Below, piece after piece: positions 1-17,737 of a stretch of 22,583 nucleotides of DNA. The notes below the pieces were generated by a model that made no database searches, was not told where the DNA came from, and saw only the letters and a list, made by a program, of their open reading frames with translations. Positions within the stretch are counted from its first letter, which is position 1. Each line of letters opens with the position of its first letter. A program made the position numbers and the translations under genes. Source of the DNA: a virus; IMG/VR virus record IMGVR_UViG_3300037264_005251, positions 1 through 22,583 of that record, one strand, 5' to 3'.

Positions 1-279
1 TACAAGAATGTCATTGTTCATGACGCAAAGGTATTCATTCTGAGGAAAAACTTTCAAGGCATGGCGAAGGCCGTCATTAACAGATTTTGTAAATCCTTCA
101 TTCTTTTCATGCTGGACAAAGTACATGGAAGACTCATAAAGCCATTCTTTTGTTTCATCAGTGCTTCCATCATTGACAATAACAAAATCATATCCTTTGG
201 TATGCTTTTCAATGCTCTCGATGAGTTGTTCCGTGTACTCAAAATTATTGTACACAGGTATTATGATGCTGGTGCGCAT
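1..279 (-). CDS. GT2 family glycosyltransferase, N-terminal part (cut by window edge)
   Basis: The first 93 codons of a minus-strand gene run off the left edge. The protein begins MRTSIIIPVYNNFEYTEQLI, the classic GT2 start, followed by VIVNDGSTDET (nucleotide-binding Asp region, about residues 33-43), NEGFTKSVNDGL (about 59-70) and MNNDILV (about 87-93), which is the DxD-type metal/nucleotide-sugar motif. GT2 enzymes transfer a sugar from an activated donor in the cytoplasm. The start at 279 has GAAGGAG just upstream and overlaps the 3' end of the fibre gene by 19 nt, so it is probably translated from the same mRNA. Its place directly after the fibre suggests it modifies a virion protein or the host surface; that is inference. 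The family call is firm; the acceptor is unknown. Confidence 0.85.
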   Translation of the reverse strand, partial: MRTSIIIPVYNNFEYTEQLIESIEKHTKGYDFVIVNDGSTDETKEWLYESSMYFVQHEKNEGFTKSVNDGLRHALKVFPQNEYLCVMNNDILV

Positions 280-1307
280 TGTGCTCCTTCATAAACCTCA
301 AGAGTGTTCATGTCATCTTGCTGAAGCGGATGATCGTGAATCCATCTAAAGTTTTTGTATCCTTTCCTAATCGCACTCACTTGCCAATCAAATGAAACAT
401 CTTGGTCGCTGCACACGATAAAGCTTTCTGGTTTTTTCTCAGCTACAAAAAGATGAGCATTTCCCATAGGCGTTACTTGAACGAGATATTCAGGCTCAGT
501 TACTTTTCTATAAATAGAATCCAATGGAATTTCCTTGCAATGATAACAAAGGCAATCAGAGCCACGATCATGGAACCATACATCAGGGCTTTCTTCTACT
601 TTGAGCACTGCGTAGTGCTCTGGATCGTACTGAATTGTTGCTGCCTTAAGGATATTATTGATTCGAAAGCAACAACCAGTTCCACAAATGATAATGCATC
701 CAGCACCAGCACCAAATCTTCCTTTCACTGTTGCTGTAACCGTATCAAAAGCACAAACATTACCACAAGTGCATAAGCCATCTCCTGTGCTTGTTGCAAT
801 AACACAACCAAAAGTACCCGTTCCAGTCATGCGAAATGAGCCATTTCCACCAGCTCCACCAAGAAGACAAACAGTTAAATCTCCAGCACCGCCGCTATTG
901 CATAAAATAATGCATCGGGCAACACCACCTTGACTTACATCAAAAATCATATCTCCGCCAGTAACACATGTGCATAGTCCTGTTGCAAGTCCTTCAATAA
1001 GAGGAGTACAAATATAAGGGACACGTATTCCACATGCGTTGCACGGACAAATATAGCCTGTTGGTCCAAGCAACCATCGTGAACCACCACCACCGCCAGC
1101 AAGGTCTGTTACGTTTCCTAAAGCATCTTTGATAAACATGGATTGATTTTTTGCATAGAGTGCAATGTATCCTGAAGCAGGAGTCATGGGATCAGTCGAG
1201 CCATTGGTGAAACAATTAGCACAAAAGCATCCGCTTCCAGCAACGTCAAACTCATTAAAGACTTTGACTCCAACACATTGATTAGATACTTCGTAAAGCT
1301 TGCTCAT
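261..1307 (-). CDS. Cysteine-rich tail fibre / receptor-binding candidate (348 aa)
   Basis: I do not recognise the whole protein. An N-terminal stretch (residues about 47-70, GYIALYAKNQSMFIKDALGN) resembles phage tail-fibre segments and is followed by a GGGGGS linker (71-76). Residues about 85-215 are Gly/Thr-rich beta-like sequence carrying many CxC and CC pairs (ICPC, LCTC, LCTCGNVC, GCC). A different C-terminal domain, about 220-340, has DCLCYHC at 251-257. There are about 26 Cys in 348 residues. The gene lies at the distal end of the tail module, after the hub and before a glycosyltransferase, which fits a host-recognition fibre. The ATG at 1307 has no clear ribosome binding site; it overlaps the stop of the upstream 26-codon ORF (ATGA), so it is probably coupled to it. 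Alternative: tail-tip adhesin or minor structural protein. Confidence 0.6.
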   Translation of the reverse strand: MSKLYEVSNQCVGVKVFNEFDVAGSGCFCANCFTNGSTDPMTPASGYIALYAKNQSMFIKDALGNVTDLAGGGGGSRWLLGPTGYICPCNACGIRVPYICTPLIEGLATGLCTCVTGGDMIFDVSQGGVARCIILCNSGGAGDLTVCLLGGAGGNGSFRMTGTGTFGCVIATSTGDGLCTCGNVCAFDTVTATVKGRFGAGAGCIIICGTGCCFRINNILKAATIQYDPEHYAVLKVEESPDVWFHDRGSDCLCYHCKEIPLDSIYRKVTEPEYLVQVTPMGNAHLFVAEKKPESFIVCSDQDVSFDWQVSAIRKGYKNFRWIHDHPLQQDDMNTLEVYEGAQCAPAS

Positions 1308-1381
1308 GGTACAGGTTGCTTGGCAATAACCTCCGAGAGTGATCGAGCAACATCACATTGGTTTGAGACTTCGTAAAGCTT
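1273..1381. repeat. Direct duplication of a fibre-gene 5' segment, 80 nt apart
   Basis: The segment 1353-1381 repeats 1273-1301 with about five or six mismatches over 29 nt; the block acttcgtaaagctt is identical in both. On the minus strand both copies are read in the same frame as KLYEVSNQC. One copy is the start of the 348-aa fibre gene and the other the start of the 26-codon ORF. This looks like a partial gene duplication or a recombination scar at the head of a fibre gene. Confidence 0.7.
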
Positions 1382-1384
1382 CAC
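1304..1384 (-). CDS. 26-aa micro-gene repeating the N-terminus of the next fibre gene
   Basis: This GTG-started ORF of 26 codons begins (V/M)KLYEVSNQCDV, which matches the start of the following 348-aa protein (MSKLYEVSNQCVGV). It then runs into an unrelated ARSLSEVIAKQPVP tail. Its GTG overlaps the stop of the 117-aa gene (GTGA) and its TGA overlaps the fibre ATG (ATGA), so it fills exactly the gap between two genes and could pass ribosomes through to the fibre start, which lacks its own ribosome binding site. It may be the remnant of an earlier fibre gene, a coupling leader, or a real micro-protein. Only the frame, the overlaps and the duplication support it. Confidence 0.5.
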   Translation of the reverse strand: MKLYEVSNQCDVARSLSEVIAKQPVP

Positions 1385-1734
1385 GTTGGCACTTTCCCTT
1401 TAATAGACTGATGAGAAAAAAACTCTGGATCTTCTTGCGAAACAATGCTTGTCATGATCCCTTTGCCTATATGAATCTTTTTATCAATTAGCTTGTCTAG
1501 CTCTTCTTGTGACAAAGATTCTATATGTTCAAGAATCATGGCATCATGGAGATGTTCTCCTAATTCTTTTTTGAGCGTTTCCATGTCAAATGTGAATGAG
1601 ATTTCATCCGTAGGATTTTCTGTGTTGTAATACACATAGACTCTGCCAGTGTCAAAAACAGCAGATCGTCTCTTTATAGTAGCTGTTCCTTTTCCCATGT
1701 CTTTAAGATGTTCTTGTGCTTGTTCGAGGCTCAT
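1381..1734 (-). CDS. Unknown 117-aa protein of the tail module
   Basis: I do not recognise this family. The protein is polar and mixed alpha/beta, with AVFDTGRVYVYYNTE (about residues 25-39), then an acidic, Leu-rich helical region (about 50-85) including LSQEELDKLIDKKIHIGKG. It has no cysteines, unlike both neighbours. It starts at 1734 in an ATGA overlap with the stop of the 1113-aa hub gene and ends in a GTGA overlap with the 26-codon ORF, so it is part of the same translationally coupled string. Position between tail hub and fibre suggests a fibre chaperone or a small tail-tip component; that is inference only. Confidence 0.7.
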   Translation of the reverse strand: MSLEQAQEHLKDMGKGTATIKRRSAVFDTGRVYVYYNTENPTDEISFTFDMETLKKELGEHLHDAMILEHIESLSQEELDKLIDKKIHIGKGIMTSIVSQEDPEFFSHQSIKGKVPT

Positions 1735-4700
1735 GTGCAGCTCTCTATGTAGACCTTCTGGTATAAATTAGTTCTGATTCTTCCTCGACCACATCCTGCG
1801 GTCTGACCTGTTGGGCCGGGACGGATTTCAACGCAATGCCATTGGCCTCGTGTTTGCAATTGAGGAATGCATAATAAATTAATATCATTCTGCTGGGTTG
1901 TGCTTAAGGTGCCATAGCAAGCTGTGCAATCAGTTCCATTGGCAAACAAGGTGACGCAACAGATAGTGCTTCCAGTGTCTAAGATGCCAAAGCACGTGTT
2001 ATGACAATGCGTTGTTCGTAATTGGTGTGCAACATAGCGTTCATCATTAATAAAAGCACAACATGCAATAAAACGAACACATCGTCCAGCTCTGTTTGTT
2101 GTGTCTCTGCATACAATCAAAGCAATAGCATTATTTGCTAGTGTACATGTTGTTGGTGCCATGATATTAGCTGCACCAGTCACATCACATATTTGAAAGC
2201 AATAGGCTTGGCTTGAACCATGATTGTTTCCATAACTCATCATCCAGATGTTATCTTGAAATGTTCCATGACAACAAACATCGCCTACAGGAGTAAACAC
2301 AACTGCGGTGCAAATACATCCAGTCACGCTTGTGTTTTCAACGTCTTGCGATAAAGCTACATACGTTATTGTGCCATCAGGACAACTGCCTGTTGTCTGG
2401 CTATAGGTTCGATAACCAGAAACATCATAGCTGAGGCATGAAGCATTAATTCCCTTGACATCTGCTGGAAGGTAATACTTGAGAACCGTTCCAAATCCTT
2501 GGTCAACATTGTCATCAGCTTGAAGCTGATAGATATTTGTCGCACCCTGCATATATTGCAGATTTTCGTTAATCTGGCAAGATCTTCGCTGAAGCTCTTC
2601 AACAATCTCAATGCGCTTGTTTGAAAGCTCAACTTGATATTTCTGTCCATTTTCTTGGTCATTCATTGCTCGAATGCGAACAACTCTAAAAGTTCCTTGC
2701 GTGCATGAGCTTTGATCGTCAACGATAACTGCATCTCCTAAATCAACACGAGTAAGGAAATCAAAATTGCTTGGCTCTAAAATAATCCTTTGAGGAGGAC
2801 TGCATCGATTGAGCATATAGACTTGTGCTGTTCTATCTGCTAAATTTTGATCAAGGATACCAGGGCATGTAATAGCTATCTCATGCAGCCCGAAGCACGC
2901 GATTGAGCTTCCTGCTTGGCATGATGTGCATGTAAACGTAGAATCATAGACTTCAATGCATTTTCCATGCGCATATTTGCATGTGCTTCCAACACCACGA
3001 GCAACAGTAGTGCTTAAAACAAGAAAGTTAGTAGAAATACTTGTGTAGCATACTGTTTCTCTTCCTATGCAAACACAACTTGGACCTGCTGCAAAGCAAG
3101 CTCCGCAGAAGACTTCAAGGCAATTCAATGCAAGAGCTGATGAAAGACACGTGTGACAAAGGCAGCAAGTGCTATTTAATCCTCGTGTAACACTGCATAA
3201 ACAAGTAGCTGTTTTTGATCCATAGCTTGCGCATTCAGCGTCGATGCAAACGCATCCTGTCGCAGGATATCCTGTCGTGTCAAAAAGTCCAATGGCTGTT
3301 GCAGTTGCTGTAATATTTTCGCAGAGGCTTGATTCTCCATTGCAGAGACAACTTCTTCGTAGCGTTGCTCCCAAAGAAATTGAACAGATTTGGTTATTGC
3401 CATCACCAGAACCGAGAATAATTACTTTATTTGCAAGAGAATCATTGTCTTTCTGGTTAGAAATTCCTAGAGCATTCGAGAATTTGCTGCCCAAAGAGAA
3501 TCCATACCTTGTATGAACAACATGATCAACCATGATATTGCATGCAGCAATAGTGCAGCCAGCTGCACATGTCGTGATAAGCCAACGCATTCTGTCAATT
3601 GCTTTGTCATTTACAGTAGACATGCTCGTGACATTTTCTGGAAATTGTTCATCAACAAGCAATAAGTTCCATCCACACATGAGATCTTTGCAATCCCAGG
3701 TCCATTCTTTGTATCCTGTAAAGTTATCAGAGCTGACACGATATTTTAATGGAGCTGTTGTGTGAATACTTGTGCATGTTGTACAATCGAGATAAAACCA
3801 AAATCCAAGAGAACGATCAATAAAATTACATGTTGCTGTGCAACATAATTGATATTCACTGACTGCACTTGATGTTTGCGCTTTGACGAAAGTAATAGAA
3901 TTTGTTCCACATTTTGGAGCAGGCAATGCTGTAGCAGCTACACTATCTCCTACGCAAATTGCTGACCAACAGGTTGTTGCTTCAGCACAATTGATAATTG
4001 TAGTAGCTGATCCTCGTGCTGTGTCAGTGTTGTAATACTGCGTGCAGTATTCATAATTGACAAAATAATCCATCTTGAGGCACCCAAGGCAAATAGCACA
4101 ATTTGCACAAGGCGACCAAATGACTCGCATCGTGTCAATGCAATCCCAAGAAGCTGCTCCAGAGGCTGTAAAATTAGACTTCAGTGCACAAATATTATTC
4201 CAACCATTGGAGAATCCTGAACATGCAAGATCAACAAAATATCCTTCATTATCTGCTGCCTTATACAAGCATACGCGAGCAACATTTGTTGTGAAACATG
4301 CAATATTGTCCACATACATCCACCATTGAAATTGATTGTAAGGAACAACTGTGTTTGCTTGAGGTATTGTATAGGTATAAATAAGAAATGTTGCCGAAGT
4401 TCCGCCCATAGTCACAGAAGAATATCCTTCTTTTTTATTGCCTGTATCAATACCCACATCGCATGCAAGAAGAGCAACCCATCCATTTGTGGTATTGCCA
4501 TCCGTGATTGTTTTAAATCCTGGGCCTGTTGAACATTGGCAGGTAGAATTTCCATAGCTTGTCCACCAATCATAGCTCACGCCACTGGCTACTTTGCTGA
4601 GGCCAACGCCAGCAGAGTCATTTTCATTTCTGAAAGAGATTTTACCAAAGTTGGTATTGGTCCCCATAGAAATGATATTAGATCCTCCTGTGCAAAGAAG

Positions 4701-5072
4701 GCACGAATTAATGGCACATGTGTCAATATTCTGGAAACGAAGCACGCCTGTAGTTCGATCAAGCAATTTTGCAACACCAAGTTCTTCTCCTATAAGAGTT
4801 ACCTCTTGGTCATTGCCATAATTGATTTGTTGAATGCGCCCAACAAACATAAGCTTCATGCCTGAAAAAGCAAAGACGAGATTATTCGTGTCAATATAGG
4901 CCTTGTCTGCTTCTTCCAAGCCAGCCATGTTAATCGTAAATATTGGCGACTTGTCGAGCGTTAAATCAATGTCATACTCGCCCATGATATCAGTGAACTG
5001 TTTTTCAGAATTATCACTTGCCTTTTGGATATAGAGTGTTAATTCCTCAATTTGACCATACGGACCAGCCAT
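1731..5072 (-). CDS. Very large cysteine-rich tail hub / tip protein (1113 aa)
   Basis: The largest gene in the window lies after tape measure and distal-tail candidates, where the tail hub (tail-associated lysozyme or gp27-like) or central fibre is expected. Residues about 1-125 are a low-Cys hub-like domain (FSGMKLMFVGRIQQINYGND). A later segment near residues 765-835 (FLTRVDLGDAVIVDD...FRVVRIRAMN...QVELSNKR) resembles the domain that closes hub modules in many siphophages. Between and after them lie long beta-rich parts with about 81 Cys in total (around 7%), often as CxC or CC (CLCSVT, CCLCHTC, CVCIG). No lysozyme or peptidase motif was seen. The start at 5072 shares its ATG region with the end of the upstream gene. 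The exact domain composition needs structure prediction. Confidence 0.7.
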   Translation of the reverse strand: MAGPYGQIEELTLYIQKASDNSEKQFTDIMGEYDIDLTLDKSPIFTINMAGLEEADKAYIDTNNLVFAFSGMKLMFVGRIQQINYGNDQEVTLIGEELGVAKLLDRTTGVLRFQNIDTCAINSCLLCTGGSNIISMGTNTNFGKISFRNENDSAGVGLSKVASGVSYDWWTSYGNSTCQCSTGPGFKTITDGNTTNGWVALLACDVGIDTGNKKEGYSSVTMGGTSATFLIYTYTIPQANTVVPYNQFQWWMYVDNIACFTTNVARVCLYKAADNEGYFVDLACSGFSNGWNNICALKSNFTASGAASWDCIDTMRVIWSPCANCAICLGCLKMDYFVNYEYCTQYYNTDTARGSATTIINCAEATTCWSAICVGDSVAATALPAPKCGTNSITFVKAQTSSAVSEYQLCCTATCNFIDRSLGFWFYLDCTTCTSIHTTAPLKYRVSSDNFTGYKEWTWDCKDLMCGWNLLLVDEQFPENVTSMSTVNDKAIDRMRWLITTCAAGCTIAACNIMVDHVVHTRYGFSLGSKFSNALGISNQKDNDSLANKVIILGSGDGNNQICSISLGATLRRSCLCNGESSLCENITATATAIGLFDTTGYPATGCVCIDAECASYGSKTATCLCSVTRGLNSTCCLCHTCLSSALALNCLEVFCGACFAAGPSCVCIGRETVCYTSISTNFLVLSTTVARGVGSTCKYAHGKCIEVYDSTFTCTSCQAGSSIACFGLHEIAITCPGILDQNLADRTAQVYMLNRCSPPQRIILEPSNFDFLTRVDLGDAVIVDDQSSCTQGTFRVVRIRAMNDQENGQKYQVELSNKRIEIVEELQRRSCQINENLQYMQGATNIYQLQADDNVDQGFGTVLKYYLPADVKGINASCLSYDVSGYRTYSQTTGSCPDGTITYVALSQDVENTSVTGCICTAVVFTPVGDVCCHGTFQDNIWMMSYGNNHGSSQAYCFQICDVTGAANIMAPTTCTLANNAIALIVCRDTTNRAGRCVRFIACCAFINDERYVAHQLRTTHCHNTCFGILDTGSTICCVTLFANGTDCTACYGTLSTTQQNDINLLCIPQLQTRGQWHCVEIRPGPTGQTAGCGRGRIRTNLYQKVYIESCT

Positions 5073-5596
5073 TATGACCTCATATCTCTATTGCGCAAGA
5101 ATCTATTGTTCTCTCCAGCTCCGCCTTCTACGAATTGGAGTTTTACTTCAATGATTTCATCATTGTCATCGGACAAATCCTGCGGCTTTTTTGATGTTGA
5201 AAGTTTTGTGATAATTCCATCCATTGAAAATGTCTGCAATGTTCCTGATGCATTGATTCTTTGAAAACCAGAAACGCTGATAGGGCGTGTTCCTAAAGAA
5301 CCATGAAGAACCATTTGACGAAGAAGATTTGCTTGAAACTCTGCCGTGTCAGTATCATTATACTTTAAATGCCCTGTAATTTCAATAGAATGCCTTACTC
5401 TCAGGCGATCAAGGATCTTTGTTTTCGCTGAGCTGAATTCTCCTGTTGCACCCTGGCTGGATTGTCCTTTTCCTGGTTCTACAAAGAAAAGATCGTTGCC
5501 ATAATCTTCTGTGATGTCTGTTGTGTATATCGTTACTGCTCGTGAAGAACCACCAATGGTCTTCGTGAATGTAATATTTGTCTGCGCGTATGCCAT
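5072..5596 (-). CDS. Distal tail protein candidate (174 aa)
   Basis: This is a beta-rich 174-aa protein between the tape measure and hub genes, the standard place of a distal tail (Dit-like) protein. The segment TKILDRLRVRHSIEITGHL (about residues 58-76) followed by GFQRINASGTLQTFSMDGIITKL resembles small tail proteins that form beta-barrel rings in archaeal and bacterial tailed viruses. It contains no Cys. The start at 5596 is in a TAATG overlap with the tape measure stop and has AGGAGG upstream. The role is inferred from position and fold flavour, not from a decisive motif. Confidence 0.55.
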   Translation of the reverse strand: MAYAQTNITFTKTIGGSSRAVTIYTTDITEDYGNDLFFVEPGKGQSSQGATGEFSSAKTKILDRLRVRHSIEITGHLKYNDTDTAEFQANLLRQMVLHGSLGTRPISVSGFQRINASGTLQTFSMDGIITKLSTSKKPQDLSDDNDEIIEVKLQFVEGGAGENNRFLRNRDMRS

Positions 5597-6579
5597 TATC
5601 CGATCCTCCTTCCTAAGCCAAGGCCTAAGAGCTGCTGCTGGTAGACTGTTGAAAGCTGGTCTGCCAAGCGTCTCATGTCAATGTTGTTTGAAACATTTGC
5701 ATGAATAGTTACGTTTGGAGCAAAGTTTGCCAAGCGATTGAGTGGAATAACTGCTTCAGGGCCTCGTTCACCAATGAGTGCAGCAGTAGGTCGAGTAACA
5801 ATACCACCTTCAGCTAAACCAAAAAGACGCTTAAAAGCAGCTTTTATACCAACAAAATTTCCTGTAACAAGATTTGCAAAAATGTCTCCAATATCTTTAA
5901 GTTTTCCCCATATCCACATAATGGCATCTTTTACTGGTTGAAATTTTGTTGCCCAAGAAATGATACCAGCACCAATTGCAATAACTGCTGGAATCCATCC
6001 ACCAAATACTGCAAAGACCAATGCAGCAATGCCACCAATAATAAGAAGTGTATTTTTGATAATAGTAACAGGCGTTGCCATATCTACAAAGAATCCATAG
6101 ACACCTTTGATGAGCATAAAAACACCAGCGAGAACTGAAAAAATTCTTCCAACAATCGGTGCTGCTCTTGATATGCCCTCCCAAATTGCTGGGAAATGTT
6201 CCATAATAAGGCCTATTTGAGCTAAGACACCTAAGAGAACTCCAGCCCATGTTGCTAATTGAACAAATCCTCCAACAAGCAAAGGATTAGTGTCTGCAAG
6301 ATCACTAAAAAATTCTGCAACTTTGTCAAGCCCTAAGAACTCTCTGAATTCTGCAACTGCTGCTCCAATTGAAGTCGTTAAGACTTCATTCTCACCGCTG
6401 ATTTGCTTTGCAAATCCAACATATTCTGAAAAGAAAGAAACTACTTGCCTTCCAATGAAGAACATAGAAAGAAGTTCACCACGAAATCGTGCAGTCGCTT
6501 TTCCAACTCTGTCTAATTCTGATTTGCTTTTACCAAAAAGCATTTCTATAGGAACAAAAATTGTTGGTAACGTTGGCAT
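5596..6579 (-). CDS. Short tail tape measure protein (327 aa)
   Basis: The C-terminal signature EGGIVTRPTAALIGERGPEA, continuing into VIPL (residues about 257-280), is a hallmark of tail tape measure proteins. The N-terminus (about 1-95) is helical and the centre (about 100-210) is strongly hydrophobic with Gly-rich helices, as usual for the segment thought to enter the host membrane. At 327 residues it is short. With the textbook relation of about 0.15 nm per residue this predicts a tail near 50 nm. It lies directly after the tail assembly chaperone pair, which chaperones it in lambda-like systems. It has no cysteine although the next two large tail genes are Cys-rich. The start at 6579 overlaps the preceding stop (TAATG). 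Confidence 0.9.
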   Translation of the reverse strand: MPTLPTIFVPIEMLFGKSKSELDRVGKATARFRGELLSMFFIGRQVVSFFSEYVGFAKQISGENEVLTTSIGAAVAEFREFLGLDKVAEFFSDLADTNPLLVGGFVQLATWAGVLLGVLAQIGLIMEHFPAIWEGISRAAPIVGRIFSVLAGVFMLIKGVYGFFVDMATPVTIIKNTLLIIGGIAALVFAVFGGWIPAVIAIGAGIISWATKFQPVKDAIMWIWGKLKDIGDIFANLVTGNFVGIKAAFKRLFGLAEGGIVTRPTAALIGERGPEAVIPLNRLANFAPNVTIHANVSNNIDMRRLADQLSTVYQQQLLGLGLGRRIG

Positions 6580-6806
6580 TACAACCTCTTCTTTCTATTT
6601 TCTTGCTTTAACATTTTCAAAAGTGTATTGCGTACTTCGAAGAATGCTGGGATAGGCATGCTCATCATGTCTTGATAAGGAATGTTGCCCATTTTCATCG
6701 TCCAAATAATCTCTTTTGCAAGAGCTTCGTCCTCATGTGTTCCAAGTACTCTGCCCTTAATCTGTTCCAGAGGATGCATTCTTGATGCGTTCAAGGAATT
6801 GTTGCT
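6579..6806 (-). CDS. Tail assembly chaperone, second ORF (T part), probably made by frameshifting
   Basis: This frame overlaps the end of the 110-aa chaperone gene and stops at the tape measure start. It matches the lambda G/GT arrangement, in which a frameshift in G makes a longer GT protein that recruits the tape measure protein. The frame is +1 (equivalently -2) relative to the upstream gene. I give the span from the shift point (AGC codon at 6806); the product would be 94 residues of the first ORF plus 75 from this one, 169 aa. An ATG at 6779 could start a free-standing 66-aa protein but has no ribosome binding site. The sequence (PLEQIKGRVLG, DEALAKEIIWTM, MSMPIPAFFEVRNTLLKML) is helical, like other T domains. 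Confidence 0.7.
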   Translation of the reverse strand, partial: SNNSLNASRMHPLEQIKGRVLGTHEDEALAKEIIWTMKMGNIPYQDMMSMPIPAFFEVRNTLLKMLKQENRKKRL

Positions 6807-7089
6807 TTTTTGTATTTCCCTGTGCATTAACCTCCATGATTGCTGACATAATAGTCTCAATATGTGATGCGCTAATGTTGTCTATTTCTTCATTCGTTGC
6901 ATCGGGCACTGCTGCCTTGAGCGTTGAAAAAATGAGATCATGCATAGCTTCTGCTTGCTTTTTCTCATCTTTTGAGCTTATACGAACAAACAAATCAATA
7001 TCTCTCACGGCGAGAGGCTTTATTTCGAGTTCAATCTCTCCAAAGAGATATTTTTGTGGCTTGCCTGCTAGTTGGCTGAGCTTGCTCAT
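6757..7089 (-). CDS. Tail assembly chaperone, first ORF (G-like, 110 aa)
   Basis: This is a small acidic helical protein just upstream of the tape measure and overlapping a second frame, as in lambda G. The N-terminus KYLFGEIELEIKPLAVRDID (about residues 13-32) is typical of chaperones of this kind, followed by helices with KDEKKQAEAMHDLIFSTL (about 40-57) and a Thr/Glu/Ile-rich segment. It probably binds tape measure protein and tail tube subunits during tail assembly in the cytoplasm. The ATG at 7089 has GGAGG a few bases upstream and overlaps the previous stop (CCATGA). The last 16 codons are in the region where the alternative frame takes over. Confidence 0.8.
   Translation of the reverse strand: MSKLSQLAGKPQKYLFGEIELEIKPLAVRDIDLFVRISSKDEKKQAEAMHDLIFSTLKAAVPDATNEEIDNISASHIETIMSAIMEVNAQGNTKKQQFLERIKNASSGTD
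6781..6812 (-). other. Putative programmed frameshift site: A6 slippery run plus hairpin
   Basis: On the minus strand the 110-aa gene reads ACA AAA AAG CAA, with six A at 6811-6806. Nine nt after the slip, CTTGA ACGCA TCAAG (6795-6781) can form a perfect 5-bp hairpin, a suitable distance for a stimulator. A +1 slip of tRNA-Lys from AAA to the overlapping AAA, or a -2 slip from AAG back to AAA, would both enter the AGC frame of the second chaperone ORF. Confidence 0.55.
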
Positions 7090-7370
7090 GGTTTTTCCTC
7101 CTTCATAAGAAACTTTGGTTTCTTCTTCTGTTCACTTGGCTGCGAAAGGAATAATTCTAATTGTTCCATGCGTTGCAGCAGATAATCAAACTTGCTTCCC
7201 TGTTCCCAATAGTTAAAAAGAAAACAGAGAGTCATTCCATAATCTGAGCAGAACTCTTCTTCTGACAGCTTGATGAACTTCTCTTTCGTCGGCTGTGGCA
7301 GCCGACTAATCGTGAAGTCTGGAACTTTTCTCGTGATCCTAGTAACAATCTGTTCTTGTGGTGTTTCCAT
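7086..7370 (-). CDS. Unknown 94-aa protein between tail tube and tail chaperone
   Basis: The protein is small, with a central conserved-looking motif FIKLSEEEFCSDYGMTLCFLF (about residues 32-52), a helical LLQRMEQLELFL segment and a Lys-rich C-terminus. Small proteins with an EEFC.DYGM-like motif are common between tail tube and tape measure in siphophages, but I know no established function. The start at 7370 follows the tail tube stop by one base. The end overlaps the chaperone start, so translation is likely coupled. A role in tail tube or tape measure assembly is inferred from context. Confidence 0.75.
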   Translation of the reverse strand: METPQEQIVTRITRKVPDFTISRLPQPTKEKFIKLSEEEFCSDYGMTLCFLFNYWEQGSKFDYLLQRMEQLELFLSQPSEQKKKPKFLMKEEKP

Positions 7371-7371
7371 C

Positions 7372-7962
7372 TTATGTGTATGCTGCTACGCTTGCTAAAG
7401 CTGTCTGGTTTGCTGATTCAAAAACAAGCTTGCCTGTTCCTGTTTTATTGAATGCAGGAAACTTTGCTTCGATAGCAAATTTGACAATGCCATCGGTGAA
7501 ACTTGGTTTCACACTCGTGATATATCCGTCAGCAAACTGCATGCGCAATGAATCTGTTGATGCAGCCGTTGCTACTCCTGCTGAGCTTGTTGGTGTCAAC
7601 GCTGTATCATTTGACCATAATAAGATCATCTTAATGCGCAAGCGTGTTCTATCTGAAGTTATCGTCTGCGGTTCTGTTGTCGTTGTATTTGTGTACAAGA
7701 GATCAAAGAAGCCTGTAGCTGCACCTGCTGCTGTCGTTGCTGTGCCTGCTTCTGTTGGATACGCTTCAAGCGTAATAGTTGTCTCCTCTTGTGGATTGAA
7801 TTTTGCAATTCTGCCGCCTGCTATATCAGGTATAAATTCAACGCCTTTTTCTCCTACATCAATATCTATTGTTTCTGTCATTGCTTGGAAATTCATGTAG
7901 CTTGCACTTGCTACTCCAATTGTTACCCAAGCATATTCTGTCCATGCGTCTGGAAAAGCCAT
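7372..7962 (-). CDS. Major tail tube protein (196 aa)
   Basis: This is a beta-rich protein of a size usual for siphovirus tail tubes, placed after the tail completion proteins and before the chaperone/tape measure genes. Features include MAFPDAWTEYAWVTIGVASA at the N-terminus, KFNPQEETTITLEAYPTEAG (about residues 54-73) and a C-terminal strand-rich part (SVKPSFTDGIVKFAIEAKFP). Subunits would stack as hexameric rings around the tape measure protein. It has no cysteine. It has one of the strongest ribosome binding sites in the operon (AGGAGGATAACAAA before ATG), as expected for an abundant product. The call is from position, size and composition rather than a catalytic motif. Confidence 0.75.
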   Translation of the reverse strand: MAFPDAWTEYAWVTIGVASASYMNFQAMTETIDIDVGEKGVEFIPDIAGGRIAKFNPQEETTITLEAYPTEAGTATTAAGAATGFFDLLYTNTTTTEPQTITSDRTRLRIKMILLWSNDTALTPTSSAGVATAASTDSLRMQFADGYITSVKPSFTDGIVKFAIEAKFPAFNKTGTGKLVFESANQTALASVAAYT

Positions 7963-7966
7963 TTTG

Positions 7967-8458
7967 TTATCCTCCTAGTGTTTTGATAATTTGTGTTTGA
8001 ACTGTTCGTGCTGTCTTGGGATATTGTTCTAAAATCCCTTGAATAGCAATCTGCTCTAAATCAATTCCTCGTCCCATGTCACTCCAAGGAACTGGATAAT
8101 TAACAAAGTTACGTACTGGCTTTCCTTTTGCAGTAAGCCATTGCTTTATAGGAACCATTGACTTATGAATCCAATGCTGCCGAGTTCCAGGAGATTGAAA
8201 TAATGCTGCTTCTCCTGTAATATTTAACTGTGCTCGTTTGGTGCTTAAACGCTTGACGAAAATCAGCTGTTTAAGTCTATTTCCTCGAAATTGGTGATGC
8301 TCTAAAAACCATGTTTCTAATGCTTTTTCTCCTGCTTTAGCAGTTTGAAATGATAGAGCGGCTGGAATTTCCTGAAACATCATATTCTGGAGGCGAACGA
8401 TTTTTCCACTTAGGCGATTCATGCCACCAAGCTTAACTTTGAATTGAACACGCGCCAT
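7967..8458 (-). CDS. Tail completion / neck protein, HK97 gp10-like candidate (163 aa)
   Basis: The basic N-terminus MARVQFKVKLGGMNRLSGKI leads into helices (residues about 25-50) with AAL.FQTAKAGEKALETWF, a layout like HK97 gp10-type proteins that join head and tail. A later W-rich segment (QHWIHKSMVPIKQWL, about 95-109) and a C-terminal helix follow. The start at 8458 overlaps the previous stop (TAATG). The SD of the tail tube gene is made from its last codons (GGA GGA TAA), so expression is tightly linked. Assignment is by gene order (between the terminator candidate and tail tube) and general pattern. Confidence 0.6.
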   Translation of the reverse strand: MARVQFKVKLGGMNRLSGKIVRLQNMMFQEIPAALSFQTAKAGEKALETWFLEHHQFRGNRLKQLIFVKRLSTKRAQLNITGEAALFQSPGTRQHWIHKSMVPIKQWLTAKGKPVRNFVNYPVPWSDMGRGIDLEQIAIQGILEQYPKTARTVQTQIIKTLGG

Positions 8459-8895
8459 TAGACTTGGCCTCGAAAGTTGAGTCGAATCTGCTGCATATTG
8501 AAGATCTTTCCATTGATTTCAATGCCGTCAGTAGAACCATCTACAAGCATATTATTTGCTAAAGAAAGGCCATAGCATCTGAGGCATGAATGATTGCATA
8601 GCAATGTGCATCGAACATTGTCGATCCCTTGATCGACCTGACGCTTGGACTTGCATCCCAGTGCGACAACATCTATTATGACTGAAATGTCATTTAATTG
8701 TTTGTTTCTATTGACAGAAAGTGCTGTTGAATTTACTTCTGCTGGATTTACAACAAAGCAAGGAAATGCAGGATCTTGTTCTGGGAATGCTGAAACCACA
8801 GTCCATCCACTTGGCTTGCAGGTATTAAGAAGCGTAGCAACTGTATTAAAGACGTTTTGATGGATACATGCTTTAGTAAGTAGTTCATATCCCAT
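8458..8895 (-). CDS. Tail terminator candidate (145 aa, Cys-enriched)
   Basis: The protein has the alpha/beta pattern of tail terminators (lambda gpU, SPP1 gp17 type). There is an N-terminal helix (about residues 1-25), FPEQDPAFPCFVVNPAEVN (about 37-55), a strand DISVIIDVVAL (about 69-79), a helix QVDQGIDNVRCTLL and a final strand QIRLNFRGQV. It would cap the tail tube and contact the connector. It has 8 Cys in 145 residues, more than most neighbours, with four in the CTLLCNHSCLRC segment. GAGGAAAAACT precedes ATG at 8895. A 95-bp gap upstream separates it from the head-closure gene. Confidence 0.55.
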   Translation of the reverse strand: MGYELLTKACIHQNVFNTVATLLNTCKPSGWTVVSAFPEQDPAFPCFVVNPAEVNSTALSVNRNKQLNDISVIIDVVALGCKSKRQVDQGIDNVRCTLLCNHSCLRCYGLSLANNMLVDGSTDGIEINGKIFNMQQIRLNFRGQV

Positions 8896-8970
8896 AGTTT
8901 TTCCTCAGAGCTACGCTCGTTGTCAATCTAACAGCCCGCAGACTGTGATTCAAGAAGACACTTTCGAGAA

Positions 8971-8990: not shown

Positions 8991-9362
8991 CTACTCTTTC
9001 TTGCGAAGGATAATTGCTTGGGCTAGCTTTGATCCATTGAACATCACAGGGCGTACTTCACGAATCCAATATTCTTGGCTATCAAAGGTAACTCGATCAT
9101 TGACATCAATGGATGTCCCTGACTTGATGAGAAGTCTGACTTCTCCTTCTGCTAAGTCTCCGAATTTCTCTAAGCCTGTTCGTAACTTGACATAATTGCT
9201 AGGAATCGAATTAATAGTTGATGTCGATGTGCTTTCTGATGGCGTGTCATAGCCAAAATTAGAAGCTGTTTCTGTCACTGCTGTGAATGTTATCTGCGTT
9301 CTCAGATTTGCGTCATCGATCAGACTTTCAAAGTAAGTTTTAAGATCTGCGCCAAGTGTCAT
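8991..9362 (-). CDS. Head closure / stopper protein candidate (123 aa)
   Basis: I chose the ATG at 9362 (MTLGADLKTYFESLIDD) because GGAGG lies 5 nt upstream and the ATG overlaps the stop of the membrane-protein gene (ATGA). The longer frame from 9374 lacks this support. The sequence has an N-terminal helix, a Ser/Thr-rich linker (about residues 40-52) and a beta-barrel part with VKLRTGLEKFGDLAEGEVRL and DRVTFDSQEYWIREVRPV, typical of small head-tail joining proteins of the stopper type (SPP1 gp16, HK97 gp7-like). It would seal the connector after packaging. No Cys. Confidence 0.6.
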   Translation of the reverse strand: MTLGADLKTYFESLIDDANLRTQITFTAVTETASNFGYDTPSESTSTSTINSIPSNYVKLRTGLEKFGDLAEGEVRLLIKSGTSIDVNDRVTFDSQEYWIREVRPVMFNGSKLAQAIILRKKE

Positions 9363-9739
9363 AAATGCCTCCAAATGTAGATTAAAAGAGAGATATTTCC
9401 TAGAATAAATAAGCCTCTCGTGATTTCTGTTGCAGCCCCATGATAGAATACTGCGCTAACAATACTTGCAGTCATTCCCAGCAAAGCAAATACTACAAGG
9501 AAATAACGCTCTTTGAATGCCTTTCTTTTGTAGAATGCAGCGAGGCCCATAAACGTGAAAACGAAGAAGTTTACAAAAGCAAGAATAACCACCATAGGCG
9601 GGCTTCCAACCAAGCGAACACCAATTACCGCTGCTATCAGTCCTATAAGAGAATAAATAGTCTTATTTTGAGTAGCAATGACTACATCAAGCTTGCTGTT
9701 CATTGATCCTATTGCCAAAGACAGGTCATCGAGTTTCAT
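9359..9739 (-). CDS. Small membrane protein with four predicted helices (126 aa), holin-like candidate
   Basis: After a soluble N-terminus (residues 1-27) there are four hydrophobic segments at about 28-43, 48-69, 79-99 and 107-123, with basic loops (YKRKAFKERY at about 70-79) that predict the orientation. No family motif was recognised. It sits between the surface-protein/53-aa pair and the head-closure gene, in the middle of the connector module, which is an unusual place for a membrane protein. It could act in virus release like a holin, in tail-related membrane contact, or be an accessory cargo gene. The end overlaps the head-closure ATG (ATGA). Confidence 0.7.
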   Translation of the reverse strand: MKLDDLSLAIGSMNSKLDVVIATQNKTIYSLIGLIAAVIGVRLVGSPPMVVILAFVNFFVFTFMGLAAFYKRKAFKERYFLVVFALLGMTASIVSAVFYHGAATEITRGLFILGNISLLIYIWRHL

Positions 9740-9742
9740 AGA

Positions 9743-9904
9743 TTAAGCAGACCGTCCATCAAGTATTTGCTGCACTTTGGTCATAAATCGTTGTGCTCCT
9801 ATTTTGACATCTCCTAATGTCCCGCCTTGCGTGCGCATTGTGGCCAAAAATGTTGTTACTTCACTCGCCACAATCGCATCAATTTGTGCATCTGTTAAGC
9901 TCAT
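9743..9904 (-). CDS. Unknown 53-aa protein
   Basis: This is a short ORF beginning MSLTDAQIDAIVASEVTTFL with a very good ribosome binding site (AGGAGGAAACA before the ATG at 9904), overlapping the stop codon of the 553-aa gene. The sequence is one amphipathic helix, a Gly turn (TQGGTLGD) and a second helix with Gln/Lys. It ends 3 nt before the membrane-protein ATG. No known family is recognised. It may be a small partner of the surface protein upstream or of the membrane protein downstream. Confidence 0.7.
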   Translation of the reverse strand: MSLTDAQIDAIVASEVTTFLATMRTQGGTLGDVKIGAQRFMTKVQQILDGRSA

Positions 9905-9913
9905 TGTTTCCTC

Positions 9914-11575
9914 CTATGTTCGTATTGCTACCCATTGCACCTTAATATTTGTTCCTGCTCCCAATGTAAGGAGTGTCACGTTCGTTCTTAGCATTGTTGC
10001 GGGTGCTGTGTTCGTAAAAACTGCTACGCCTGAACCTGTTGCATTGGTATGCGTGGCAATTGTAAACCAGTTAGTGCCCGAATCGAGCGATCCTTGAAGC
10101 AAGACCGTCCATGCTGTTACTACTCCCGTCTGGAAAACGACAAGCGTATGCGTATCGGTCGCTTCTCCTGTCGTATTAACGCTTGTGCCTGTTGTAGCTG
10201 TTGTGAACGTTTCATTCTGCAAATAGCGGTTTATTCTTTGATAGGTGTTCCCGCTTGTGTCTTCCCATACTTCACGGGAGATCGTTACAACTCCATTTGG
10301 TGCGGTGAGAAGATTTGCTGTGCTTACGACACGTGGCGTAACCGTTGTTGATACATCTGTTATAGCAACTGCTCCAATGCCTAAACCAGCGAACGAAAAT
10401 TGGTACCAAGGTATGCCAACGTAGCCGACATGGAGAGGAGTTACTGCTGTGCCTATCTCTGTTCCAGAAACATTTCTTAGATTTGTATGCAAGGCCCGAA
10501 ATGAAGTCATTCGAAGAGCACCAGCATCACCTTCATCAACGACATCGGGAGACGTATCATCAAGCTCTGCGCCAATCATGGCAACTTTGCTTGTAGCTGG
10601 TGTAAATGCTGCATCATCAGTAAAGATAACATCATCGATTAACTGAAGTGATGTTGTTTGTTCTCCTTGGCATGCAGAAGTTGCTGCGCCACTTGGCAGA
10701 GCTGAATTACATATACTTACATTTGCACAGAGGTTTGCCGCAGTTGCCTGACAAACTGCTACGGAGTTTGTTATTGTTGTAACCGCAGTAACTGTTCCAA
10801 TATTCCATGTTCCACATTGGCCAACATTGCCAATATTTGCTGTTCCAGCTACAAGTGTCGGTAATCGAGTGACATCAACATCTAAACCATTCGTTGTATC
10901 TCCACGCATGCGATCCCATGTAGTTCCATTAAAAAGAGAATTATAGGTTCCAACAGATGTAACGGTTGGGTTTGTTACTGTGTCAGCTAAAGCTGCAACT
11001 GCAATAAGTTCAGTATCAACACAAAGATTTGACGCTGTTGTATTGCATACACATACTGGATTTGTAATTGATGTAACTGCGGTAATTGTTCCACAAACAG
11101 GAACTAAGTCATTGGTTGCTATGGTTACTCTCTGAGTGCCAGTGTCACGTACACCTGTATTAAGTGAGATAGCAACTCCACCCTGGCATACGAGATTAGT
11201 AACTGTCGTTACTGTTCCTACATTTGGCGTGTTGCAAACATTAACATTTGCGCATAAATTGCTTGCTGTTCCTTGGCAGACACCAATCGAACCATCATGT
11301 GATATCCACAAGGCTCCTCTGCTTGTTGTTCTCAATGAAACAGCATCATCTAACACAGGCGTGAGCGTGTCTAATGTGTCACACCTTCGAGCCATCGAAA
11401 GTGTTCCTGTTGGTGTTGCTCCGAGAGCTGTATCTTCTGCATACTGGCATCCACCGCCAAAAGAAGTTATTTGAACGCCACTTGCGTCAATTAAAGAAAC
11501 ATCGACTGTTGTGCAATCGCCACGTGCACTAAACTTTTTCTTTTCATTGTCGTAGACATTTGAGTTAAGGGCCAT
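9914..11575 (-). CDS. Repeat-rich virion surface protein (553 aa)
   Basis: The N-terminal part (about residues 85-305) has degenerate repeats built on VTxVTN..V.VCQ.TASNLCANV..CN and GQCGTWNIGTVTAVTTITN, patterns common in phage fibre or decoration proteins. All 16 Cys lie in residues 1-305. Residues about 330-375 (AMIGAELDD.SPDVVDEGDA then RMTSFRALHTNLRN) match a module I know from many phage virion proteins. The C-terminus (about 485-553, AWTVLLQGSLDSGTNWFTIA) is a beta-sandwich-like domain shared with the two plus-strand genes at 21487 and 21824. No enzyme motif. A head or neck fibre or decoration role is likely, given its place between connector and head-closure genes. Confidence 0.65.
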   Translation of the reverse strand: MALNSNVYDNEKKKFSARGDCTTVDVSLIDASGVQITSFGGGCQYAEDTALGATPTGTLSMARRCDTLDTLTPVLDDAVSLRTTSRGALWISHDGSIGVCQGTASNLCANVNVCNTPNVGTVTTVTNLVCQGGVAISLNTGVRDTGTQRVTIATNDLVPVCGTITAVTSITNPVCVCNTTASNLCVDTELIAVAALADTVTNPTVTSVGTYNSLFNGTTWDRMRGDTTNGLDVDVTRLPTLVAGTANIGNVGQCGTWNIGTVTAVTTITNSVAVCQATAANLCANVSICNSALPSGAATSACQGEQTTSLQLIDDVIFTDDAAFTPATSKVAMIGAELDDTSPDVVDEGDAGALRMTSFRALHTNLRNVSGTEIGTAVTPLHVGYVGIPWYQFSFAGLGIGAVAITDVSTTVTPRVVSTANLLTAPNGVVTISREVWEDTSGNTYQRINRYLQNETFTTATTGTSVNTTGEATDTHTLVVFQTGVVTAWTVLLQGSLDSGTNWFTIATHTNATGSGVAVFTNTAPATMLRTNVTLLTLGAGTNIKVQWVAIRT

Positions 11576-11576
11576 G

Positions 11577-12329
11577 TCATCGTACTACATCCACTTTGAA
11601 TGCACCCACTACTTCATTTTGAAGTCGTTTGATATCAAGGTCCAAGCTTTGCATATAGTTGACACTTTGTGTGATATTCTTTGAAATCGATAATCCATCC
11701 AAGCTGAATGAATCAATTGATGAAAACTGAGAGAGATTTGCTTTCGTTGCCAGAATCCTTCTGGCGACCATCTTTGTAGACAATTGCTGAACTGTTGCTG
11801 GTATTGCAGAATATCCATATTTGTAGGTCGTACAAATAGCTCTTGGATGCCCATATATAGGACCACACGAAGTAAACACAATCTTGCCTGTTTCTTTGTC
11901 CAGAAAATAGCTTCCGCCACTACCGGTATTTTCTGTTAAGGCTGTAAAAGAATCTGCTGCGTTTCCAAATGAGCTAGAGCCATTTACTCCAAGTGATGTT
12001 ATTGAGACGATTGGTCGTCTCTGCGGGCCGCCACTAACGTCTTGAAGAAAAACAGCATTGGGAATGCTCCCTGTAAGATTTTGCCCAGCGACAAGCCCCC
12101 AATAGCGATTATTATTATCAGAAAATGCGGTATCAGATGTAAAAGGGATAATTGCAGCAGTAACCGTGCAACCATCGCTTCCTGTTCCGAACTTTGTTCC
12201 GCTCAGCTCTTCTATTTCAGCTTCTGCTTCAGTAATCCAATTCGCAACAGTCGTGCACGTAGGTGTACTACTTGCATCAAATGTTTGCTGTAGTTCTACT
12301 CCTATGCAACCGACAGTCGTATATGCCAT
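11577..12329 (-). CDS. Head-tail connector (adaptor) candidate, gp6-like (250 aa)
   Basis: The position after capsid and decoration genes, and helices near both ends, fit a gp6-type adaptor that binds below the portal. The N-terminal helix WITEAEAEIEELSGT (about residues 31-45) and later AVQQLSTKMVARRILATKAN-like helix (about 178-197) are typical of this family. Between them is an inserted beta-rich part with DKETGKIVFTS.GPIYGHP. It is longer than usual for the family (often 100-170 aa). It has 5 Cys. The start codon at 12329 lies in a CATAAG/CTTATG inverted repeat and lacks a good ribosome binding site. Confidence 0.55.
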   Translation of the reverse strand: MAYTTVGCIGVELQQTFDASSTPTCTTVANWITEAEAEIEELSGTKFGTGSDGCTVTAAIIPFTSDTAFSDNNNRYWGLVAGQNLTGSIPNAVFLQDVSGGPQRRPIVSITSLGVNGSSSFGNAADSFTALTENTGSGGSYFLDKETGKIVFTSCGPIYGHPRAICTTYKYGYSAIPATVQQLSTKMVARRILATKANLSQFSSIDSFSLDGLSISKNITQSVNYMQSLDLDIKRLQNEVVGAFKVDVVR

Positions 12330-12342
12330 AAGTTCAACTCAC

Positions 12343-12609
12343 TTATGAGCATCTCTTGCCCCAAGCGATATAGCCGCCACAATGTCCAGTTTCTAAAGCT
12401 GTAAGGTCGATACATCGTCCATTCGCTGATGGAACAACGAGTATTGTTGAAGTTCCCACAATTTCCGAATAGATACTGACTGCTCCTGGATCGGCCATAA
12501 TGCCTAAAGTGATTGTGCCTGTTGTGACTGCTGCTGCTGTCCAACATCCTGTTTCTACTTTCTTATTTCCGAACGTTGTTCGGGTAATACAACTTGTACT
12601 AAATGCCAT
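12343..12609 (-). CDS. Small Cys-rich capsid decoration candidate (88 aa)
   Basis: This small beta-type protein lies directly after the major capsid gene, where head decoration proteins are usually encoded. It starts MAFSTSCITRTTFGNKKVET and contains GIMADPGAVSIYSEI (about residues 36-50) and a C-terminal GHCGGYIAWGKRC. There are 5 Cys in 88 residues, in contrast with the single Cys of the capsid protein. It has a strong ribosome binding site (GGAGGATTATT before ATG), as needed for a high-copy virion protein. Function is inferred from position, size and expression signals. Confidence 0.55.
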   Translation of the reverse strand: MAFSTSCITRTTFGNKKVETGCWTAAAVTTGTITLGIMADPGAVSIYSEIVGTSTILVVPSANGRCIDLTALETGHCGGYIAWGKRCS

Positions 12610-12635
12610 AATAATCCTCCATGCTCTAAGATTTT

Positions 12636-12665
12636 CCTCGATTGAGGGAAGGCATTGCAGCCTTC
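12636..12665 (-). other. Two back-to-back hairpins after the capsid gene
   Basis: In the 76-nt gap after the capsid stop, GAAGGC-TGCAAT-GCCTTC (12665-12648) and CCTC-AATC-GAGG (12647-12636) form adjacent hairpins on the minus-strand RNA. No T-run follows, so a simple terminator is unlikely. They could protect the 3' end of a processed capsid mRNA or tune expression of downstream genes. Confidence 0.45.
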
Positions 12666-12685
12666 AAAGCTTACTATCTCTTTAC

Positions 12686-13864
12686 TTAGACATTTTCTAA
12701 GTTAAAGATGGTTACTTGCGAATCAAATCGCTTCATGACTAAGACACCATAGGACTTGTAATAACCTCCACTGGAATCTGCGCCATACACTGTTCGTGTT
12801 CCATCGTCTCCGATGACTGGAACGTGCACTGCATTAACTCCGCCAACATAGACCATAAATATATTGTCTAAGTCAAGCAAAAAGACACAATTGTCTGCAT
12901 TGCCTGGCGTGGTCGTTACGCTTGAAGAAACAACTTTAACAATTGCTACATCATCCATAAATCGTGAACCAATAAGAGGTATTCTTCTGTAGGATAATAC
13001 TCTAAAGCCACCATCGAACTCAATCGTATTTCCTGTTGAAAGGAATCGCTGTTGTGCTTGAAGGAGTGCTGCGACTTTATCGACACGTTCTTCTGACATC
13101 AAGAAGATTCTTCGATTGTTCTTTGCGCCACGCTTATTTGATTTCGTTATTGACGAATCTAAATGATCGAGCGTTAACGCAACTGTTGATCCGCCTCCAG
13201 CTACACCCGTTGCATCAACTGCTTGTGCATTAAGATATGTGGTTGTAGTCGAACGAACAGTTCCATAGATTGTTGATGTATCCAACATGCCATTTAGCGT
13301 GGCTGTACCGACGCCATTCAGCATCAAGCCACCTCGTGCTGTGGAATTTTTGTCTCCATAGAGTCCATTAAATCCACCAACAACGTTTCCTGATGTGCTC
13401 GATGCTGTCGTATTTCTGCCAACGATAATCTGTCGTTCTTCGCCTGTGGCCATAGCATCTGCTGCAAAACGAGCCTCTTCCATGAGCTGATCGCCCATGC
13501 CTGCTGCAACCATCAGTCCTGAGACACTATAATCTGCTCGGTATCCTACTGCTGGAGCAAAAAGCTGTTGCTTTGCACTTGCTTGTGCAGTATTTGTCGA
13601 ACCTTCTGTAAAGAATGCAAACGAGGTATTGCCCCAACTATTGCCTGTTCCTTCAGTAACGAGGTTCCAAATATATGCAAGTTGATTAATATTAACACTT
13701 CGCAATAATGGGCGAAGATCAGTCATTTTATTATATGCTTCAACTGGTAGTTCTTCTATTCTTTTTTGGATTTCTGCGCCACCCGCCCCTGATCCTAATG
13801 CTGTTGTAGTATTAAGACCAGTCGTCAAAGAAGCGCGTACTTCCATCAATGTTTGATAGCTCAT
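12686..13864 (-). CDS. HK97-fold major capsid protein (392 aa)
   Basis: The protein follows the protease/scaffold and has the expected size. Residues about 30-60 (AEIQKRIEELPVEAYNKMTDLRPLL) are the N-arm and helix; the long central part contains VSGLMVAAGMGDQLMEEARFA (spine-helix-like) and the C-terminal part a P-domain-like strand set (KRGAKNNRRIFLMSEERVDKVAALLQA, FRVLSYRRIPLIGSRFMDDVAI). It forms the icosahedral shell. It contains only one Cys. The ATG at 13864 has AGGAGGAGATAAT upstream, built from the last codons of the protease gene. The family call rests on position and pattern; I see no covalent cross-link motif I could claim. Confidence 0.85.
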   Translation of the reverse strand: MSYQTLMEVRASLTTGLNTTTALGSGAGGAEIQKRIEELPVEAYNKMTDLRPLLRSVNINQLAYIWNLVTEGTGNSWGNTSFAFFTEGSTNTAQASAKQQLFAPAVGYRADYSVSGLMVAAGMGDQLMEEARFAADAMATGEERQIIVGRNTTASSTSGNVVGGFNGLYGDKNSTARGGLMLNGVGTATLNGMLDTSTIYGTVRSTTTTYLNAQAVDATGVAGGGSTVALTLDHLDSSITKSNKRGAKNNRRIFLMSEERVDKVAALLQAQQRFLSTGNTIEFDGGFRVLSYRRIPLIGSRFMDDVAIVKVVSSSVTTTPGNADNCVFLLDLDNIFMVYVGGVNAVHVPVIGDDGTRTVYGADSSGGYYKSYGVLVMKRFDSQVTIFNLENV

Positions 13865-17159: not shown

Positions 17160-17737
17160 TCATCCTCCTCGATAAGCTCAAGCTTTTTGCAGTTTTCAAT
17201 AATGCCCTTGAATCGGTCTATTTCGCTTTTGAGGCGTTCATTCTGCTGCTCAAGCCTTACTCGCACAACATCATAATTCTCGCCAGTTTTTTCTTCCTTC
17301 ATGATAAATTCTTTGTTAAGATTCAACGTTTCTATTTCAAAGTCAACGGATTTCAAGTTGAGATTAAGCTCTTCCTTTGCAAGCAATCTCCACTCATCAG
17401 ACTGTTTCCATTGTTCAATCGTCATGCCTCTTTTGATGGCATCAAGCTGCTTTGTAATAAATTCTTTCTTGTTTTCAAGCACCTTCTGCTGATGCGCATG
17501 CTTGTTATAAAAGCCTTCTTCAAATCTCTTTTTCTTGTTAGGAAGCTCAGCTATTTTCTTCTCATTCTCTTGAATAAGCTCTTCATTGTACTGGATAGAC
17601 TGTTCTACTCCTGCCTTTTCTGCATCATTTCTTAGTGTAAGAAATAACTTCCTGATAGATCTATTGACTTCATCATCGACTTTCATTAATGCTTCATACA
17701 CGGGGTAGTGAAGCTTCACGGTTCGTAATCGTGGCAT
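17156..17737 (-). CDS. Coiled-coil protein with RHH-like N-terminus (193 aa)
   Basis: The first 40 residues (TVKLHYPVYEALMKVDDEVN then RSIRKLFLTLRNDAEK) resemble a ribbon-helix-helix strand-helix-helix. The rest (about 45-190) is a long charged coiled coil with two breaks (ELPNKKKRFEEGF and GENYDVVRV). Thus it may be a DNA-binding dimer with an extended rod. It is coupled to both neighbours: its ATG overlaps the glycosyltransferase stop (TAATG, with GGAGG 7 nt upstream) and its stop overlaps the RHH gene start. No known family is recognised. A packaging or regulatory function are both open. Confidence 0.65.
   Translation of the reverse strand: MPRLRTVKLHYPVYEALMKVDDEVNRSIRKLFLTLRNDAEKAGVEQSIQYNEELIQENEKKIAELPNKKKRFEEGFYNKHAHQQKVLENKKEFITKQLDAIKRGMTIEQWKQSDEWRLLAKEELNLNLKSVDFEIETLNLNKEFIMKEEKTGENYDVVRVRLEQQNERLKSEIDRFKGIIENCKKLELIEEDE

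Follow-up and report, generated by a model that had tools for sequence, protein, structure and literature searches.

Cysteine-loaded distal tail proteins in an environmental head–tail virus and in unrelated viruses

The window analysed here, a stand-alone IMG/VR record of 22.6 kb (22,583 nt), carries the genes of a head–tail virus, among them those for TerL, portal, capsid (an SU10-type MCP), tape measure and tail proteins. At its left edge lies a GT2 glycosyltransferase gene (1–279, minus strand; Pfam PF00535, E 2.8e-15), which is cut by the window end and overlaps the end of the tail fibre gene. Another GT2-like gene (17737–18624) sits between the TerL and portal genes and is most closely related to genes from Manatee Spring, Methanobacteriales and Mycobacterium phages. 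Haloarchaeal viruses are among the nearest relatives of the TerL and portal, alongside others. An archaeal host appears likely from the gene content, because DUF2080, which scores above the cut-off in the window, gives a match only in Methanocaldococcus (M. jannaschii) among 14 control genomes. A provirus search of genomes found no host genome, and no direct relatives of the virus were found by hub and capsid scans of viral contigs or by a TerL scan of genome contigs; locus L008 was the sole relative recovered in the Hc1 scans.

The tail-tip hub (1113 aa; 1731–5072, minus strand) matches phrog_4311 (E 2e-17) as well as siphophage tail proteins, and 80 IMG/VR relatives were recovered through alignment of its core, which bears the motif YMQGATN (searched as Y[SM]QGAT[NQ][IV]). 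The hub gene follows those for the tape measure (5596–6579) and a distal-tail-type protein of 174 aa (5072–5596), and this order of tape, 174-aa-type gene and hub is common to loci L176, L170 and L173. By homology and gene order, the hub is assigned as an ordinary siphovirus-type (Tal/tip) attachment protein. Its N-terminal part (aa 1–117; 4722–5072, minus strand) is Cys-free, the first Cys being at aa 119. Two tandem related domains follow (aa 190–545; 3438–4505, minus strand), which are Cys-rich and align with one another with a local score of 76, compared with 36±6 and a maximum of 59 in 200 shuffles; they are possibly carbohydrate-binding-like in fold. What appear to be two copies of a small beta domain (aa 575–680; 3033–3350, minus strand), the second identified by eye and with its strand at 666–669, each hold a C-V-C-I strand in which Cys (C607/C609 and C666/C668) alternate with core V and I in the alignment and modelled strands. 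The conserved core with YMQGATN (aa 741–930; 2283–2852, minus strand) is Cys-poor by density per 50 aa. A monomer model of aa 546–1113, built from 37 sequences, reached a mean pLDDT of 64.6 with some parts confident, and its best PDB matches, the phage Chi tail tip and the HFTV1 tail, are weak (E 0.005–0.009, low TM). A PDB sequence search with hub and fibre gave no match.

Downstream of the hub gene are the gene for a 117-aa protein (1381–1734, minus strand) and that for the tail fibre (348 aa; 261–1307, minus strand; phrog_6616 tail protein, E 1.9e-6). The C-terminal 100 aa or so of the fibre (aa 239–338) correspond to a domain that ends siphophage tail proteins, with tblastn matches to tail proteins of Enterococcus, Lactobacillus and Pediococcus phages. 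The columns occupied by Cys in this domain hold T/K/I/V, D/G and K/F/E in the homologues. An AlphaFold model of the fibre alone has a pLDDT of 35.

The hub contains 81 Cys (7.3%) and the fibre 26 (7.5%), and relative to the rate of 1.07% in the remaining genes the binomial probabilities are 2e-40 and 2e-14, respectively. The tape measure, protease, 174-aa protein, putative tail tube and 117-aa spacer have none, and the MCP and portal have one each (1/392 and 1/472). The original prediction had counted about 81 and 26 Cys by eye, with 0 in tape measure and protease and 1 each in capsid and portal, and every one of these figures is exact. It had also argued from the lack of Cys in the 117-aa protein between hub and fibre that the enrichment is specific to genes and not regional base drift; this protein and other neighbouring genes do have 0 Cys. 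A reference set of 230 viral loci, assembled by homology to TerL or hub, contains 1138 ORFs of 250 aa or longer; not one of them reaches 5% Cys, and the 99th percentile is 3.3%.

The further proposal that the rest of the particle is nearly Cys-free holds for tape measure, protease, tube, capsid and portal, but four further proteins contain 2.9–5.7% Cys. A 145-aa protein of the tail/connector region (8458–8895, minus strand) has 8 (5.5%), compared with 2 in its aligned L008 homologue (E 2e-15). A 553-aa structural-type protein (9914–11575, minus strand) has 16 (2.9%); its residues 286–366 share 63% identity with proteins of Manatee Spring phage, in which the aligned position has no Cys. An 88-aa protein encoded beside the capsid gene (12343–12609, minus strand) has 5 (5.7%) and is, from gene position, a possible decoration protein. 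The fourth, of 126 aa (21824–22204, plus strand), has 7 (5.6%). Its gene adjoins that of a 114-aa paralogue (21487–21831), 35% identical, with 0 Cys, so that the pair, on the strand opposite to the tail genes, forms a natural internal control; a scan found no relatives of either paralogue.

Comparison with Cys-poor homologues had been proposed as a check, and the enrichment is absent from all 80 homologous hubs (mean 0.63%, maximum 1.24% Cys). Thirty-two Cys columns of the hub could be aligned with the eight closest hubs, which are 26–28% identical to it. In these relatives the columns hold small residues (S/T/G/A/P) in 47% of cases, polar or charged residues in 37%, hydrophobic residues in 16% and Cys in 0.5%, whereas control columns, at which the window hub has V, I or L, are 63% hydrophobic. 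Because the relatives' columns are small or polar and almost never Cys, the alignment places the hub Cys as recent gains at solvent-facing, surface-type positions. In the modelled strand G-C-V-C-I (aa 606–610), Cys replace the relatives' S/T and R while V and I remain core. Additionally, when the neighbours of Cys are pooled over eight Cys-loaded proteins, hydrophobic residues make up 406 of 1085 at ±1 and 325 of 1075 at ±2 (P 5e-4), an excess that fits Cys lying on the face that points away from the core. Of the suggestion that Cys line one face of stacked beta strands, the single face therefore survives, as an outer face and in specific genes.

The pairing of these Cys fares less well. Frequent CxC and CC pairs had been reported, but against local shuffles the hub has 7 CxC where 6.8 are expected, 5 CC for 6.8 and 10 CxxC for 6.8, with longer gaps also at chance level; only the CxC of the fibre are weakly raised (5 for 1.9, P 0.026). 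The apparent pairs thus arise mostly from high Cys density. The disulfide ladders or metal sites that had been proposed gain no support from the hub, where spacing is random and metal motifs are essentially absent. Ladder-like periodicity is found instead in the Cys-loaded fibre stems of other viruses, where Cys are over-represented at gaps of 4, 7 and 11 (z 5.5, 2.7 and 4.2 in L267), in part owing to the pattern by which these proteins were found.

That pattern, a DNA search of viral contigs for the repeat C-x-T-x-C-phi-x3-phi-phi-C-x-T-x-C, gave 47 matching stretches, with about 5 expected by chance on our own rough estimate. Eight loci carry it in frame within a clearly Cys-rich long ORF, L271 being the L176 contig again; since one narrow pattern defines the set, it speaks to occurrence and not to frequency or taxonomic spread. 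The loci with the trait are L176/L271, L293, L284, L285, L267, L287, L269 and L258, and the most extreme of the fibre-type proteins contain 6.7–11% Cys. The L293 protein has 99 Cys in 1003 aa (0.31% in the rest of the locus), that of L267 117 in 1724 aa (0.8% in the rest), that of L285 65 in 713 aa and that of L287 63 in 934 aa. In L284 a 1143-aa protein (5486–8914, minus strand) reaches 126 Cys (11%). Its gene adjoins one for an S74-ended fibre (9155–13120, minus strand) in which Cys are concentrated near the C-terminal end. L176 is a relative of the window through its hub, which is Cys-poor (5/1124), and directly downstream encodes a 199-aa fibre with 19 Cys (9.5%), whose motif PCNSCGI resembles PCNACGI of the window. 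The architectures of the Cys-loaded proteins differ, comprising S74 stems, repeat fibres and some proteins without any family match.

Conservation of these Cys varies. In one related gene pair of L284 and L258, 15 of 16 Cys are kept, whereas for other residues the figure is 81%. The S74 fibres of the same loci, a more diverged pair, keep Cys no better than the rest (59%, and 65% for other residues). Relatives of the L267 protein in isolates contain little Cys (0.1–0.9%), with two exceptions. One is the Kyanoviridae single-cell record AG-345-L05, with a 2491-aa fibre (L299, 2706–10178) containing 75 Cys; the other is Pelagibacter phage HTVC112P, whose fibre is mildly enriched (14 Cys in 756 aa). 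The AG-345-L05 fibre is built of N-x-F-I-G-x-x-A-G repeats, and in 46 of these the conserved N, G, A/S and G never give way to Cys, which is almost confined to the variable positions. GT9-like genes are present in three unrelated records, HTVC112P among them (L267, 7180–8277; L284, 4490–5413; L302, 5611–6489).

A distal tail protein with at least about 5% Cys, accompanied by other virion genes at about 1% or less, is thus found in the window, in L293, L267, L284 and L176/L271, and partly in L285 and L287. Placement of Cys at surface or variable positions is seen in the hub columns, in the AG-345-L05 repeats and in the pooled neighbours. Cys-loading recurs independently in unrelated environmental viruses with different fibre folds.

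Our leading explanation, held tentatively, is that distal attachment proteins have convergently gained a coat of thiols, which most likely become cross-linked by disulfides once outside the cell. Hub and fibre would be ordinary siphovirus-type attachment proteins to which dozens of solvent-facing Cys have been added, coating the distal tail with thiols. During assembly these thiols would remain free in the reducing cytoplasm; after release they would oxidise to disulfides within and between subunits, stiffening the exposed attachment device and making it protease-proof. Parts that slide, mature or are buried (tube, tape, capsid, portal) would stay nearly Cys-free. By analogy, phage Milano, in which disulfides stabilise the tail, supports cross-linking (PMC10811340, PMC10491603). 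Against it, the random spacing and odd total (81) in the hub are unlike designed pairs, the host may inhabit anoxic, sulfidic settings that are poor for disulfide formation, the ORFs tested yielded no recognisable thioredoxin or Dsb-type gene, and Cys in the L284/L258 S74 fibre pair are conserved no better than other residues. Disulfides of the intracellular kind known from thermophiles are unsupported, the IVYWREL estimate being about 36 °C.

Random placement suits a coat more than defined pairs, and this, together with the outward Cys on distal attachment proteins, would also fit reactive thiols that bind the host by thiol–disulfide exchange with disulfide-linked surfaces, or that bind metal or sulfur surfaces. 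Archaeal sheaths, whose hoops are linked by disulfides (PMC11576556), offer an example of such a target, and the DUF2080 match makes an archaeal host likely. The trait is nonetheless also present in a record of the Kyanoviridae, a cyanophage family, and in other virus types, for which no such host surface is known, and Cys are enriched in the 145-aa and 88-aa proteins, which do not look adhesive; we regard adhesion by thiols as rather unlikely, although it and the next reading are serious competitors of disulfide cross-linking. Somewhat more doubtful is that the Cys are attachment sites for S-linked glycans or another modification, added by virus-encoded transferases and coating the fibre. S-glycosyltransferases of the GT2 type do exist (SunS), and a GT2 gene overlaps the window fibre gene. 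Likewise, GT9-like genes that match one another at about E 1e-12 are neighbours of the HTVC112P fibre gene and, in L267 and L284, of the Cys-loaded genes, and NodU-type carbamoyltransferase genes lie near Cys-loaded genes (L293, 38–1798; L284, 2773–4485). Adjacency of glycosyltransferases is not specific, however, because they also adjoin the Cys-poor tails of the hub relatives L170, L171 and L174; the window GT2 is cut by the window end, which precludes its classification, and we found no paper on such a modification.

Binding of Zn, Fe-S or haem by Cys clusters along the tail would be compatible with the high Cys density, with the few CxxC pairs (10 for 6.8 expected) and with a weak, sub-threshold Pfam match to 'phage zinc binding' (E 0.045). 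Yet the hub has one CxxCH, few CxxC..CxxC and 12 His in 1113 aa, so that canonical ligand spacing is lacking, its Cys are randomly spaced, and relatives do not share the Cys columns. Metal sites are on this evidence very improbable, and multihaem or zinc arrays in particular were rejected on the CxxCH, CxxC..CxxC and His counts. Least credible is that the Cys have no function and stem from drift in mutation or codon use, from recoding of TGY or from an artefact of assembly. Many residue types have been replaced by Cys, and the Cys-rich genes have slightly less CpG, but the 1113-aa frame is open beside genes with 0% Cys, TGT and TGC are both used in keeping with the bias of each genome, Cys are retained in one related pair, and the trait recurs in unrelated viruses. 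TGY means Cys here because the Cys of an FPC motif is conserved with L008; recoding was rejected on this ground and on the near-zero TGY in other genes. Hypermutation by CpG deamination was likewise rejected, as the replaced residues are not one-step CGY changes and CpG is only slightly lower.

No part of a tailed virus is more exposed or evolves faster than its receptor-binding proteins, which, as far as their chemistry is known, mostly recognise carbohydrates. Whether viruses of unrelated lineages, among them an archaeal-type siphovirus and a member of a cyanophage family, have each acquired a coat of surface cysteines on these devices independently is, in our judgement, evenly balanced. The recurrence suggests that virus attachment devices can have a surface chemistry not described so far; no description of such a class was found in a search of open-access literature. 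If real, the new chemistry would consist of armour set by oxidation, covalent thiol adhesion or S-modified fibres, and selection would act on exposure and not on a specific fold. A recurrent thiol coat of 7–11% Cys on different folds would imply a redox or thiol principle in attachment or survival, and Cys composition would be a simple signature by which to spot these devices in viromes.

Among known systems, the beta-helical antifreeze proteins of insects are made of short repeats with regularly spaced Cys. They resemble the 11-residue C-x-T-x-C repeats of L267, L287 and L285, with no homology claimed, and this type of repeat is absent from the window hub and fibre. The virion of Agrobacterium phage Milano is locked by disulfides, its structural proteins containing 2.1–2.4% Cys that span capsid, sheath, tube and collar/neck and form specific inter-subunit pairs (PMC10811340, PMC10491603). 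Like the window, Milano (as well as 7-7-1 and OLIVR4) is enriched in Cys in virion proteins that are exposed, fibre attachments among them, and has Cys-poor relatives. It differs in that the window has 7.3–7.5% mainly in hub and fibre, with scattered spacing in the hub and 0–1 Cys in capsid, tube, tape and portal (MCP 1, portal 1, tube 0, tape 0), and thus no rise across capsid, tube and neck. In methanogen and methanotroph viruses with cysH or dcm, the Cys-rich tail spike and the anoxic, archaeal setting are similar to the window. For two methanogen viruses the tail spikes are reported to be among the most Cys-rich proteins; the text consulted gives counts for these two only, with neither an analysis of surface positions nor such density (PMC9723712). 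The original prediction, which knew of no described tailed virus with such a tail, must accordingly be qualified in view of Milano and the methanogen viruses, although the enrichments in these precedents are much weaker or differently distributed. The closest kin of the hub are the siphovirus Tal/tip proteins (phrog_4311, YSQGATN core), which share its homologous core and its place after the tape gene, match it weakly at fold level through the phage Chi and HFTV1 tips, and contain about 0.6% Cys compared with 7.3% in the window.
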